46,326 bases of DNA from a virus: the IMG/VR virus record IMGVR_UViG_3300042876_000988, positions 1 to 46,326 of that record. The stretch is one strand, 5' to 3'. The notes under the pieces are model-generated. The model was not told where the DNA came from. It was given only the letters and a program-made list of their open reading frames with translations, and made no database searches. A program made the position numbers and the translations under genes. Positions within the stretch are counted from its first letter, which is position 1. Every line of letters begins with the position of its first letter. Positions 25,447 through 29,073 of this stretch are shown one piece after another.

Positions 25447-25480
25447 TTGCGTGGGGAATCAATCGGCCGTAACTTACGGC
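25447..25480 (+). promoter_or_regulatory. promoter P1 with dyad operator
   Basis: TTGCGT (25447-25452), 17-base spacer, TAACTT (25470-25475). The -10 box lies inside a perfect inverted repeat GCCGTAA-C-TTACGGC (25466-25480). P2 at 26013 has the same layout, which supports both as real. Confidence 0.8.
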
Positions 25481-25519
25481 ATGGCATCGGCACGGCCGGG
25501 CCAACCCATGGGGGACGCA

Positions 25520-25999
25520 ATGGAAATCCAAGGCTCTGGCGAATACTGGCGCTATCGGCAGATGATCGGCATGACGTTTGGGTCGAAGGAATGGAACGAG
25601 TACTACCACGGCGGGAGGGCGCCCAAGCGGAAGGGCGCGATCGCGCGGCGCTTGGCTATGCCCAGCGTCCGCAAGACCCAGGCCGCGGCGCATGAGTTGG
25701 CCATGGACGACTGGGCCGCCCAGCTCGCCTGGGAGGCAGGCTGTGCTGGCATCGTCCAGGCTTACCAATCCGACCTGCAAGGCCTGGGCACCGTGGCCCG
25801 CAGCACGGCCGCCAAGGACCACGCCCTAACGGTGCAGGTGCATCCCTTGACCACCTGGCCAGAGGGCATCACTGAGGAGCTACAGGCGGCCGGCTTTGCC
25901 TGGTCAAGCCGCAAGGGCGGGTTTTGGTGGGCACATCGTAGCCCCGAAACCTGCGCCACTGCTGCTCGGATCTGTTCCGGGCAGGTCCTCGAAAATTAA
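25520..25999 (+). CDS. accessory protein with C-terminal GFxWS-type domain
   Basis: 159 residues from the ATG at 25520, which has GGGGGA four bases upstream; ATGs at 25481 and 25508 are less likely. The first ~105 residues (WRYRQMIGMTFGSKEWNEYY) are unrecognised. The end (ELQAAGFAWSSRKGGFWWAH) matches the end of the LPD29 protein encoded at 26653 (LLRADGFRWSQASGCWRAKR), a short module also seen in plasmid and phage polyvalent proteins. It is the first gene under P1 and a candidate anti-defence protein by context. Confidence 0.75.
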   Translation: MEIQGSGEYWRYRQMIGMTFGSKEWNEYYHGGRAPKRKGAIARRLAMPSVRKTQAAAHELAMDDWAAQLAWEAGCAGIVQAYQSDLQGLGTVARSTAAKDHALTVQVHPLTTWPEGITEELQAAGFAWSSRKGGFWWAHRSPETCATAARICSGQVLEN

Positions 26000-26012
26000 T
26001 TTCTTTTGCCTC

Positions 26013-26046
26013 TTGCGCGCCGACGATCTAGGCCGTAACTTATGAC
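26013..26046 (+). promoter_or_regulatory. promoter P2 with dyad operator
   Basis: TTGCGC (26013-26018), 17-base spacer ending in GGCCG as in P1, TAACTT (26036-26041). The inverted repeat at 26032-26046 is imperfect (GCCGTAA-C-TTATGAC). The shared design suggests one regulator, probably the HTH protein at 28276, acts on both. Confidence 0.75.
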
Positions 26047-26050
26047 ATCA

Positions 26051-26087
26051 ACCAAGCCCCCGGACGCCGGGGCATCTCACGGAGGAA
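26051..26087 (+). promoter_or_regulatory. stem-loop next to RBS, copy 1
   Basis: CCCCGG-ACG-CCGGGG stem (26058-26072) nine bases upstream of GGAGG, before the ATG at 26091. The 24 bases 26051-26074 recur exactly at 26484-26507, and the RBS part TCACGGAGGAA is also shared. Conservation of stem plus RBS suggests a translational control element. Confidence 0.75.
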
Positions 26088-26090
26088 ACG

Positions 26091-26520: not shown

Positions 26521-26524
26521 AGTC

Positions 26525-26656
26525 ATGCTCTCAATCCAACCCGAAACCGGCGGCACCTTTGCGGTGTACCTCGGATCCTTCCGCATCTTCGGCGGCCTGA
26601 GCCTTTCCCAGGCCTTTTCCGTCGCTGAAATCCACGTCGTGGAGGCCTCCCGATGA
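26525..26656 (+). CDS. 43-residue accessory peptide
   Basis: Starts at the ATG with GGAGGAAGTC upstream; sequence MLSIQPETGGTFAVYLGSF then FGGLSLSQAFSVAEIHVVEA. It overlaps the next start (ATGA), so the two are coupled. The pattern (a strand, a short helix, a strand) resembles a small folded peptide rather than a leader. Function unknown. Confidence 0.7.
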   Translation: MLSIQPETGGTFAVYLGSFRIFGGLSLSQAFSVAEIHVVEASR

Positions 26657-27831
26657 GCGCCTATATGTGTGAGGACAGCACCATCATGGCCCTGGCTTTG
26701 GCCCTCCACTGGGAAGGCATCACCATTGGCCCAATTTCCGATGCTTTCAGCCTGTTTGATGCCCTGCACCAAAAGAACATCCAGGCGATGAATTCCCGCT
26801 ATGAGGACCGCTGGAACGAGGCCGAAGAGGCCGCCTATCCCGCAGACCTTGCGGACCTGATGCGCCGCGCTTCCATCCTGGCCACGGTCGATTTCCTGGC
26901 AGAGACTGAGGAACGCGGGGCCATTCGGGAATACTCCTACCAGGCTTGCGAGTGCCCTGATTGGGAAACTAGCCCCGAATGCATGGCGCTGGAGGCGCTG
27001 ACGGCCGCGCTTGCCAGCCGGAGCCGCTTCTTTGTGGAGGTTGAAAAACCAGCTTTGCAGGCCAATGCCTGCGAGGCCGAGCGCGCCCGCATTCTCAAGG
27101 ACTACCCCTTCTTGGAAGTGGCCGGGACAGGAAAGCGCAGCGGGGCGGCCCTCGCAGCTCACAACATCCGCCAGGAACTCAAGCGGGCCTTTCCTTCGGT
27201 GAAGTTCTCGATTACCTCGAAAAATTACAGCATGGGGAATCATGTTTCAGTGTGCTGGAGCGATGGCCCCACCCGTGCGGCGGTGGACGAAATTATCAGC
27301 AGGTATGAATACGGAAGTTTCGACGGAATGACGGACTGCTACAACTACAGCAGCGGGCTGGGCCGCATTTGGCCCGAAACCTTTGGGGGGACCAAGTACG
27401 CCAACGCAGACCGCGATTTTTCAGAGGCGGCCTATGCCTGGGCCCTTCGGCGTGTGATTGCCGAAGAAGGAATCCAGGGCGTCACCCTCGAAGGGTGGAC
27501 CCTCAAATCCTTCTGGAATAGTGAACTGCGCAACCTTCGCCCCAATATGGGCTATCACAACGTCGGCGAATTGGCCTACCAAATCCTCAACATCACCGAC
27601 GCTTCCGCCTGGACAAAACCTGATTTCGTGCCCGCCATCTGGTCCCCGAACGCCGATAAAGGCGGGGTGGAAATCCGCTTCACATCCGCGCCGGCCGAAT
27701 CCGTGCGGGCCTTGCTCCGCGCCGATGGGTTCCGCTGGTCCCAGGCTTCCGGGTGCTGGCGGGCCAAGCGCACACCCCAAACTGAAGACCTCGCCCGCCA
27801 GCTCTGCGCCTTCGCTTGCTTTGCCGCCTGA
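26653..27831 (+). CDS. LPD29-domain protein
   Basis: 392 residues. Residues ~165-240 contain the LPD29 signature of polyvalent proteins: AAHNIRQELKRAFPSVKFSI, then SMGNHVSVCWSDGP and YGSFDGMTDCYNYSSG. The C-terminal ~50 residues (VRALLRADGFRWSQASGCWR) are the same type of module as in the protein at 25520. LPD domains occur in large proteins that some plasmids and phages deliver into the cell to blunt host defences. Here the protein is small and stand-alone. The biochemical activity is not known to me. Confidence 0.85.
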   Translation: MSAYMCEDSTIMALALALHWEGITIGPISDAFSLFDALHQKNIQAMNSRYEDRWNEAEEAAYPADLADLMRRASILATVDFLAETEERGAIREYSYQACECPDWETSPECMALEALTAALASRSRFFVEVEKPALQANACEAERARILKDYPFLEVAGTGKRSGAALAAHNIRQELKRAFPSVKFSITSKNYSMGNHVSVCWSDGPTRAAVDEIISRYEYGSFDGMTDCYNYSSGLGRIWPETFGGTKYANADRDFSEAAYAWALRRVIAEEGIQGVTLEGWTLKSFWNSELRNLRPNMGYHNVGELAYQILNITDASAWTKPDFVPAIWSPNADKGGVEIRFTSAPAESVRALLRADGFRWSQASGCWRAKRTPQTEDLARQLCAFACFAA

Positions 27832-27839
27832 GGCCAGCC

Positions 27840-28016
27840 ATGAAATGTGATCCCGGGATTCAAACCGCCTTTCCTTGGTTCGAGGGCCAGCCAGAGTTGG
27901 CCCCGATTGAACCCAGCCAAGCCCCAGCCCTCCCGCAGGGCTGGGACGCTCTGGTCCCCTTGTTCTCCCCTCCCCAGGTTCCGACCCGCCGAGGAGTCCC
28001 ACCATGGAATCCCTGA
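27840..28016 (+). CDS. 58-residue Pro-rich protein
   Basis: Starts eight bases after the previous stop with GAGG upstream; rich in Pro and Trp (FPWFEGQPELAPIEPSQAPA). It overlaps the next gene by 13 bases in another frame. It keeps an open, coupled frame in a compact operon, which argues for expression, but composition is unusual. Could be non-functional. Confidence 0.5.
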   Translation: MKCDPGIQTAFPWFEGQPELAPIEPSQAPALPQGWDALVPLFSPPQVPTRRGVPPWNP

Positions 28017-28279
28017 CCTTCCGTGAGCGCCTGGCGCTTCGGAAAATCCGCGGCCACCTGGTGGCGCTCGGCCTCCCGGAGGCAGCCGGGTGGACGGACG
28101 AAGAGACCGCGCAGAAGGTCGCGGAACTCCACGAAAACATGGGGAAGGCGGCCCGCTCGATTGGCATTTCGGCCGCAGAGGCAGCGGCCAACATGAGGGC
28201 CGCGGCCCGCGCTTATTCCAGCCAATTCCTTTCCGCCTTCGATCAAGGCCCACCCAACATCCAGGAGCAAAACCCATGA
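28004..28279 (+). CDS. small helical accessory protein
   Basis: 91 residues, helical (FRERLALRKIRGHLVALGLP, then EETAQKVAELHENMGKAARS and AAEAAANMRAAARAY). GAGGAG leader and ATGA overlap with the HTH gene downstream. No family recognised. Its small size and place directly before the regulator fit an Aca-linked inhibitor gene. Confidence 0.75.
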   Translation: MESLTFRERLALRKIRGHLVALGLPEAAGWTDEETAQKVAELHENMGKAARSIGISAAEAAANMRAAARAYSSQFLSAFDQGPPNIQEQNP

Positions 28280-29073
28280 CCGGCGCCGAACTCAAAACCA
28301 TCCGGGAATCCCTCCTTTTAAGCGCCCAAGGCCTGGCCGATCGCCTGCGGGTGGCGGGCCTGCTGACGGTCGGAAACGTGCGCACGGTCCAGCGGTGGGA
28401 GGACGGGGACCGCCCGGTCCCTGATGACATCGCCGCGGCGGTGCGGGCCCTCGATGCCCATGTGGAAACGCTGTGCCAGCGTGGTCTTGCGGTCGTGCGC
28501 GCCGCGTCGCGCCAGCCCGGTCCGGTCGTGCTTTTGCGCTATGAATCTGCAGAGGACTTCGGCCGGTATCACCCGACCGAGCCCCACACGCCCCTGGACC
28601 ACCGCCTGCACACGGCCGCCTTGGTCCGCCTGCGCCGAGACGCCGAAGCTTTGGGCCGGGTGGTGCGCATCGTCGGCATGGATCCCGAGGACTACGAAGC
28701 TTGGCGCTTCCAAGAGGGGCTTGAGGATGATCTAGGCACCCGGGCCGCGTGGTCTGCGAGGGCCTTGACCAGGCCTTTATCTCGGCCGGCCTCTTTCGAC
28801 CCCGCCATGTTGCTGAGAATCCTGCAACCGGTATCAGCAGCGGCCAGGGCAGCCCAGGTTGATTCCAAAAAACAGGGTAGGGTCGGCGCGGCTTTGGCCA
28901 CCGCCAGCAAACAACTGGAACTCTTGGGCGGTGGAGATCCGCGCTCCGCGTGGAAGACCGCCGCTGCCCTGCTCAAACATGAGGCTGATGGGATCACCAG
29001 GGGAACCCAGCCAGAGCGGCACAAGGCCTTGCTGAGCGCCGCCGGAGTGTTGGAGCGCCAAGCCACACAGTAG
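28276..29073 (+). CDS. Aca2/DUF1870-like HTH regulator with C-terminal extension
   Basis: 265 residues from the ATG overlapping the previous stop. Residues 1-62 are an HTH: MTGAELKTIRESLLLSAQGL, then RTVQRWEDGDRPVPDDI, very close to Aca2-type proteins (IR..L.L, RTVQRWE.G, VPDD). The following dimerisation part (PGPVVLLRYESAEDFGRYHP) also matches the Aca2 layout. About 110 further helical residues (ALTRPLSRPASFDPAMLLRI onward) are not part of classic Aca2. Aca2 represses anti-CRISPR operons at inverted repeats in the promoter and has been reported to bind mRNA stem-loops. The dyads in P1 and P2 are the natural targets. Confidence 0.82.
   Translation: MTGAELKTIRESLLLSAQGLADRLRVAGLLTVGNVRTVQRWEDGDRPVPDDIAAAVRALDAHVETLCQRGLAVVRAASRQPGPVVLLRYESAEDFGRYHPTEPHTPLDHRLHTAALVRLRRDAEALGRVVRIVGMDPEDYEAWRFQEGLEDDLGTRAAWSARALTRPLSRPASFDPAMLLRILQPVSAAARAAQVDSKKQGRVGAALATASKQLELLGGGDPRSAWKTAAALLKHEADGITRGTQPERHKALLSAAGVLERQATQ

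Follow-up and report, generated by a model that had tools for sequence, protein, structure and literature searches.

A putative autorepressed accessory operon of a temperate phage joins an LPD29 gene to an Aca2/SO3848-type regulator

Introduction

What does a phage gain from a cassette of small genes that runs against both neighbouring operons and ends in a helix-turn-helix (HTH) gene? Such a cassette occupies positions 25447-29073 of the window, by which we mean the whole 46,326-nucleotide stretch analysed here (IMG/VR record IMGVR_UViG_3300042876_000988). An earlier note, made from the letters alone, had read it as a candidate anti-CRISPR/counter-defence operon closed by an Aca2-like regulator. 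We consider it probable that the cassette, carried by a temperate phage, is an accessory (moron) operon that regulates itself and whose cargo would act in early host takeover or counter-defence.

Results

The open reading frames of the cassette lie on the + strand at the positions given earlier, and the genes on either side are on the - strand: lysis genes at 24102-25045, and 29374-31684 with an integrase at 30650-31684. The description of seven counter-oriented genes thus holds for positions, orientation and neighbours, and fails probably for one member, 27840. Because 27840-28016 has no third-position GC excess, nor any codon-position signal, and overlaps 28004, it is probably no gene but a non-coding, untranslated leader of 28004; it carries a hairpin, CCCAGCCCT-N5-AGGGCTGGG (27923-27945). 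The short 26525 gene, in contrast, looks real, since its Shine-Dalgarno leader is copied from that of gene 26091 and it overlaps the LPD29 start. The cassette start set earlier, 25447, is the -35 element of a promoter-like site; the first gene starts at 25520 (Table 1).

Table 1. Features of the cassette, in window coordinates
Feature	Position	Strand	Description
Promoter P1	25447-25475	+	TTGCGT (25447-25452), 17-bp spacer, TAACTT (25470-25475)
Candidate operator O1	25466-25480		15-bp palindrome GCCGTAA-C-TTACGGC covering the P1 -10
Leader hairpin before 25520	25482-25503	+	UGGC(A)UCGGC-ACG-GCCGGGCCA
Gene 25520	25520-25999	+	159 aa; third-position GC 0.79
Promoter P2	26013-26046	+	TTGCGC-N17-TAACTT, before gene 26091
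Degenerate candidate operator in P2	26032-26046		GCCGTAACTTATGAC
Tandem leader hairpins	26056-26085	+	CCCCGG-ACG-CCGGGG, then CUC-ACG-GAGG enclosing the Shine-Dalgarno site
Gene 26091	26091-26474	+	127 aa; no family or relatives found
Second copy of leader hairpins	26484-26519	+	before gene 26525
Gene 26525	26525-26656	+	43 aa; overlaps LPD29 start by 4 nt
LPD29-domain gene	26653-27831	+	392 aa; LPD29 at residues 167-254; C-terminal GFRWS..W domain about 330-388
Doubtful ORF 27840	27840-28016	+	58 aa; overlaps 28004
Gene 28004	28004-28279	+	91 aa; directly before regulator, 4-nt overlap
Aca2/SO3848-type regulator	28276-29073	+	265 aa; HTH and dimerisation domain 1-165; private C-terminal four-helix extension about 176-264

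The regulator, 28276, matched the Pfam family Aca2_YdiL (PF08965) over its HTH half only, at E 5.6e-5 and 23.7 bits, just under the cut-off of 23.8. Its AlphaFold model had a pLDDT of 86, and a fold search of the PDB with it gave nine matches at probability 1.00, all of them SO3848, Aca2 (7ezy, 7vjq, 7vjo, 7b5j) or YdiL (1s4k), with TM scores by target of 0.71-0.84 and no other credible match. SO3848 (2ox6) reached E 7.6e-7 and a TM by target of 0.82-0.84. The model and these matches indicate an HTH with an Aca2-type dimerisation domain, over the N-terminal 165 residues. An HMM built from the regulator's relatives recovers Aca2 of phage ZF40 at 1.4e-14. The proposal of an Aca2-type regulator is borne out at fold level, and so is its position as last gene by the gene order. 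Those relatives were reached only with an alignment query; single-sequence searches of IMG/VR or GTDB contigs with the regulator, genes 25520 and 26091 and the terminase returned no relative, and a DNA-level search of phage records with the cassette found no match.

P1 and P2 resemble one another, with an ungapped similarity score of 17, where the highest among 395 random pairs of window stretches was 15, and within the window the operator class is confined to these promoters of the cassette itself. These palindromes go beyond what had been noticed earlier. The exact 15-bp operator of the window was found at 21 loci in an IMG/VR scan, none with an Aca2-like gene nearby, so elsewhere this 15-mer is private or chance-like.

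In unrelated phages and plasmids, genes related to the regulator again have palindromes of the TAA-N-TTA type upstream. Counting TAA-N(1-2)-TTA with arms of at least 7, we found 13 in 1.28 Mb of fetched loci, ten of which lie at most 3 kb upstream of a regulator relative; the 25 regulator-relative genes examined had nine such palindromes, compared with a mean of 0.095 in shuffles. The sites often occupy the -35/-10 spacer, and the order is operator, usually one unrelated small gene, then regulator; the small genes share no common family by eye and gave no credible Pfam match. The core CCTAANTTAGG, which these sites share, occurs 73 times in 250 Mycobacteriales genomes, and four of the six best regulator matches there (G373, G611, G543 and G448) have a core site within about 1.1 kb; the last three were left out of the motif definition and make an independent test. 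Weak HTH-only matches in the same 250 genomes had no core site nearby. The palindrome is absent at two of the six best matches and is not universal among family members, and a survey of betaproteobacterial genomes turned up few full-length members, with no operator pattern that could be used.

A small gene overlapping an HTH gene, whose product weakly resembles the MqsA family, might also suggest a toxin-antitoxin-like pair, in which 28004 or the LPD29 protein would be toxic and the HTH protein both antitoxin and autorepressor. We regard this as very improbable, given that PADLOC and Pfam yielded no toxin family (a GnsAB match reached only E 0.2-0.85; PADLOC matched none of the seven cassette ORFs) and that the small genes upstream of the relatives' regulators are mutually unrelated.

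In three cassette leaders the Shine-Dalgarno site coincides with an ACG-loop hairpin. Ten ACG-triloop hairpins occur in the window, three of them in these leaders, and they are rare elsewhere; 24 nt of the 26056-26085 leader sequence are exactly duplicated at 26484-26507. The 10-mer CTCACGGAGG has just two exact occurrences in the window, at 26076 and 26510, and recurs before the LPD29 gene of another viral sequence, L071. Relative to L071, the hairpins carry two double compensatory changes, a covariation count that is based on three sequences and was equalled or exceeded in 55 of 500 shuffles. Folding energies of the window leaders are not lower than those of shuffles, and the RNA argument therefore rests on the common loop, covariation and position.

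That gene 26653 encodes an LPD29 domain, as first suggested, was confirmed by a clear match to PF18847 (E 6e-20; 72.1 bits against the profile's 27). The protein is not a large, multidomain polyvalent protein with catalytic and DNA-processing domains: it consists of LPD29 and one short C-terminal domain, with no catalytic family found and no PDB fold match to its model. A C-terminal GFxWSxxxGxWWA domain is common to it and the 25520 protein. LPD29 proteins might instead aid replication or DNA processing on entry, in view of the C-terminal domain's match to a phage primase family and of RecT and DNA polymerase III beta among the neighbours at some LPD29 loci; we find this doubtful, as each family accounts for only one or two of the 82 neighbouring proteins at the threshold used and no consistent replication neighbourhood emerges. 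The single ArdC-N match among the same 82 is too thin to argue for an anti-defence island. Short HTH genes lie within 1 kb downstream of LPD29 in L007, L014, L015, L024 and, weakly, L030; this association is only suggestive.

LPD29 and a long regulator recur together in two further viral sequences, L071 and L075, in one of them beside the same integrase. In L071 a homologous integrase adjoins a set of 25520-like (tblastn 1.9e-12), LPD29 (2e-63, syntenic) and Aca2-like genes, of which the 25520-like one lies upstream of the operator and outside the repressed unit; L075 has LPD29, a 162-aa gene and an Aca2-like gene. An integrase adjoining the cassette in both the window and L071, in a temperate phage, would suit a lysogeny or superinfection module whose regulator is an immunity-type repressor of other promoters and whose cargo serves lysogeny. 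This is improbable: the window's operators sit only at the cassette's own promoters, and the regulator's relatives are found on plasmids as well as phages.

Small genes followed by a regulator on one strand, with an operator within the core promoter, form the layout of acr-aca operons, and 28004 occupies the slot of the acr genes in acr-aca2 operons. A true anti-CRISPR operon, with one or more Cas-complex binders among 28004, 26091, 26525 and 25520 and a bona fide Aca2 as its regulator, would account for the order of operator, small unrelated gene and Aca2-fold regulator and for the 4-nt overlap of 28004. We nevertheless judge it unlikely. Searches of Pfam, NCBIfam, PHROGs and PDB sequences placed no cargo gene in a known anti-CRISPR or anti-restriction family, a result compatible with a new Acr, and the nearest PDB relative of the regulator is SO3848, not Aca2. 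Nor was the earlier premise that Aca2-type proteins usually mark anti-CRISPR operons supported, for only 35 of 1223 Aca2-like genes (3%) had known acr genes upstream (PMC9410906). The further claim, of a unit that as a whole works against host defences, is thus unsupported as it was put, with no cargo match to a known inhibitor; a counter-defence role for the cargo is plausible.

Discussion

From the palindromes, their recurrence with regulator relatives, the ACG-loop hairpins and the LPD29-regulator synteny, all read from sequence, we infer that the cassette is most likely an autorepressed operon of the acr-aca2 type. The two similar promoters P1 and P2 would fire soon after DNA entry, and the 28276 protein would then shut the operon off by binding, as a dimer, to the TAA-N-TTA palindrome that covers the -10. 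As Aca2 binds RNA as well (PMC11239489), we propose that the 28276 protein probably acts on translation too, damping it by way of the ACG-loop hairpins at Shine-Dalgarno sites. The cargo (the LPD29 protein, 25520, 26091, 26525 and 28004) would most likely comprise early host-takeover or counter-defence factors, whose overproduction would have to be avoided.

More tentatively, long Aca2/SO3848-type regulators may form a widespread autorepressor class among proteobacterial and actinobacterial phages and plasmids, with an operator code of its own (YTAA-N-TTAR, or GTAA-N-TTAC as in the window), DNA and RNA control of short cassettes of small, otherwise unrelated genes that would be a largely uncharted counter-defence reservoir, and LPD29 as a recurrent effector. 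If so, regulator and operator would give an acr-independent search handle for regulated early cargo carried by the phages and plasmids of a wide range of hosts, and LPD29, a polyvalent-protein domain without known activity, would be joined to an anti-CRISPR-style control circuit, making its role directly testable.

Among known systems, the acrIF8-aca2 operon of Pectobacterium phage ZF40 (Aca2, DUF1870) shares with the cassette the Aca2 fold, the regulator as last gene, a temperate phage and a palindromic operator inside the core promoter, which is TGTTCGC-GATT-GCGAACA in ZF40 and a candidate of the TAA-N-TTA type here. The cassette differs in its regulator of 265 aa (about 116-125 in ZF40-type Aca2), its LPD29 cargo, its lack of a known acr gene and its leader hairpin sequence. 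SO3848 of Shewanella oneidensis (DUF4447) is the nearest protein of solved structure, both in sequence, over residues 6-162, and in fold. It lacks the four-helix extension, is chromosomal and adjoins an SMI1/KNR4 gene (PMC8434428). The polyvalent proteins of Iyer et al. 2017 (PMC5512222) share LPD29 and a mobile-element setting with the cassette, whose protein differs in having just two recognisable domains and in lacking LPD30. The portions of the LPD29 literature consulted describe no control of LPD29 by an Aca2-type regulator. Homologous regulators are encoded by DUF1870 genes of Streptomyces, Gordonia and Mycobacterium plasmids and of phage Gilgamesh. They are shorter (about 135-170 aa) and accompany other cargo, and the Gordonia member is without such a palindrome, whereas in several of the others one small gene follows a TAA-N-TTA operator or an operator close to it in sequence.

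Results

The cassette occupies the + strand between lysis genes and an integrase-containing block, both on the − strand, in a 46,326-bp virus record of a temperate tailed phage that encodes a lambda-type portal, GpA terminase, tape measure, SLT lysin, DNA methylase and two integrases; no close relative of this phage turned up in the collections searched. An earlier note had counted seven cassette genes, of which six are credible (25520, 26091, 26525, 26653, 28004 and 28276), while 27840-28016 showed no codon-position signal; the LPD29 domain that it had placed in 26653 is unambiguous. 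Because the first promoter lies inside a longer ORF, the ATG at 25520 is supported as a gene start. The C5 methylase may have a restriction evasion role of its own.

Coordinates of features in the window
Position	Feature
to 25045	Lysis genes, − strand
25280-25999	Longer ORF enclosing first promoter
25447	Start of first promoter
25520-25999	Gene; C-terminal GFxWSxxxGxWWA domain, also matching a phage primase family and polyvalent-type proteins
26653-27831	LPD29 gene; same C-terminal domain
28276-29073	Regulator gene
28801-29073	Predicted four-helix extension
29062-29149	Direct repeat of 38 bp with 92% identity and a spacing of 50; begins within regulator gene 3′ end and includes its stop codon
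29158-29184	ACG-loop hairpin, CCCCTAC..TATTACGGATA..GGTAGGGG
30650-31684	Tyrosine integrase, − strand
39382-41055	C5 cytosine DNA methylase
44003-44509	Second ORF matching Aca2-like profile, weakly (E 0.0027)
45053-46264	Tyrosine integrase, opposite strand to the other

The Aca2-like identity proposed earlier for the regulator holds at the level of fold: although its Pfam Aca2_YdiL match falls marginally below cut-off, Foldseek with the AlphaFold model (pLDDT 86) returned credible matches only to SO3848, Aca2 and YdiL, with nine chains at probability 1.00. By sequence, SO3848 is the best solved relative (residues 6-162) and Aca2 the second; the three proteins form one structural family found in varied genomic contexts (Usher et al., PMC8434428). 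The model predicts four additional helices (residues about 176-264, pLDDT about 80), a private C-terminal extension for which a search for relatives gave no match, and which is absent from the closest relative, the 166-aa regulator of locus L071.

A promoter, TTGCGY-N17-TAACTT, is common to the upstream regions of 25520 and 26091, with a perfect palindrome across the −10 of the first and a degenerate one at the second. Same-centre palindromes recurred when we scanned upstream of 25 regulator family members; of the 13 such palindromes in all loci (1.28 Mb), 10 are followed by a family gene within 3 kb, and shuffling predicted 0.095 for the examined regions.

Palindromes in the window and at relatives of the regulator
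Source	Palindrome
Window, first promoter	GCCGTAA-C-TTACGGC
Window, second promoter	GCCGTAACTTATGAC
L071	TGGTCCTAA-A-TTAGGACCA
L062	TTTCGTAA-A-TTACGAAA
Pasteurella phage	TGTTCTAA-CC-TTAGAACA
Mycobacterium plasmid	ACGCCCTAA-C-TTAGGGCGT
M. fortuitum	GCCCTAA-C-TTAGGGC
Streptomyces	GCTTCCTAA-A-TTAGGAAGC
Propionimicrobium	TACCTAA-C-TTAGGTA

The pattern had been defined on these same loci, and its core was therefore tested on 250 Mycobacteriales genomes, searched with the regulator profile and, independently, for the string CCTAANTTAGG. The string occurred 73 times across 49 genomes, a density near one per 20 Mb at rounded genome sizes. Downstream regulator matches followed at about 378 bases in G373, the genome of an already-seen locus, and at about 345, 375 and 1095 bases in the new genomes G611, G543 and G448; the G448 regulator match has an additional site 50 bases downstream of it. 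Two further strong matches (G543 C7:56139 and G611 C67) had no close site, and none lay near weak HTH-only matches in the 250 genomes. At the new loci and plasmids the palindrome often occupies the promoter spacer, flanked by a −35 of TTG type and a −10 of TAG type. The operator is thus real for this regulator class, and by homology the window regulator would bind its own palindrome. Two relatives carry operator and leader in duplicate on both sides of the regulator (L154, 396 and 1904; L153, 1116 and 2786), which suggests control of both upstream and downstream cassettes.

Aca2 is said, in a 2024 Nature paper, to repress translation. Leaders of 25520, 26091 and 26525 each carry an ACG-triloop hairpin upstream of the Shine-Dalgarno site and after the promoter or stop codon, those of 26091 and 26525 being copies of each other; these are 3 of the 10 such hairpins in the window (stem at least 5, both strands). 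The L071 LPD29 leader shares both the loop and the CUCACGGAGG that follows it, and has two double compensatory changes in its stem. A second hairpin, CUC-ACG-GAG, surrounds the Shine-Dalgarno site in 26091, 26525 and L071. Actinobacterial relatives (L152, L153, L154, L049 and L068) share a different hairpin, GGUC-A(A)-GGGG-AnCAG-CCCC-A-GACC, several with a second that carries AAGGAA within its loop. Because leader folding energies taken alone were not significant, RNA-level control of the cassette is suggestive only; RNA binding is a known property of Aca2 (PMC11239489). The hairpin about 85 bases past the regulator stop codon is possibly a terminator or an additional regulator target.

Discussion

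The cassette is most likely autorepressed, with an Aca2/SO3848-type regulator, and the main gain is an operator signature transferable to other genomes. No match established the identity of any cargo gene. LPD29 domains occur in proteins of phages and conjugative elements, for which an early-invasion role has been proposed (PMC5512222). Counter-defence in the broad sense is about as likely as not for the cargo, and anti-CRISPR activity in particular is improbable. Aca2-type regulators had been taken usually to end anti-CRISPR operons, but known acr neighbours are mostly absent, occurring at only 35 of 1223 Aca2-like genes (PMC9410906).

L071 retains a 25520-like gene, operator, LPD29 and regulator adjoining a homologous integrase, and L075 retains LPD29, one gene and regulator (L076 yields identical matches). 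Elsewhere (L007, L014, L015, L024 and, weakly, L030) a short Aca2-type-HTH gene (about 60-130 aa) follows LPD29 on the same strand, no more than 1 kb away. The window has more genes, LPD29 included, between operator and regulator than relatives do. Relatives typically place a single small gene there (76-157 aa, unrelated by eye, with no credible family found), and this order of operator, small gene and regulator is the same layout as that of acr-aca2 operons.
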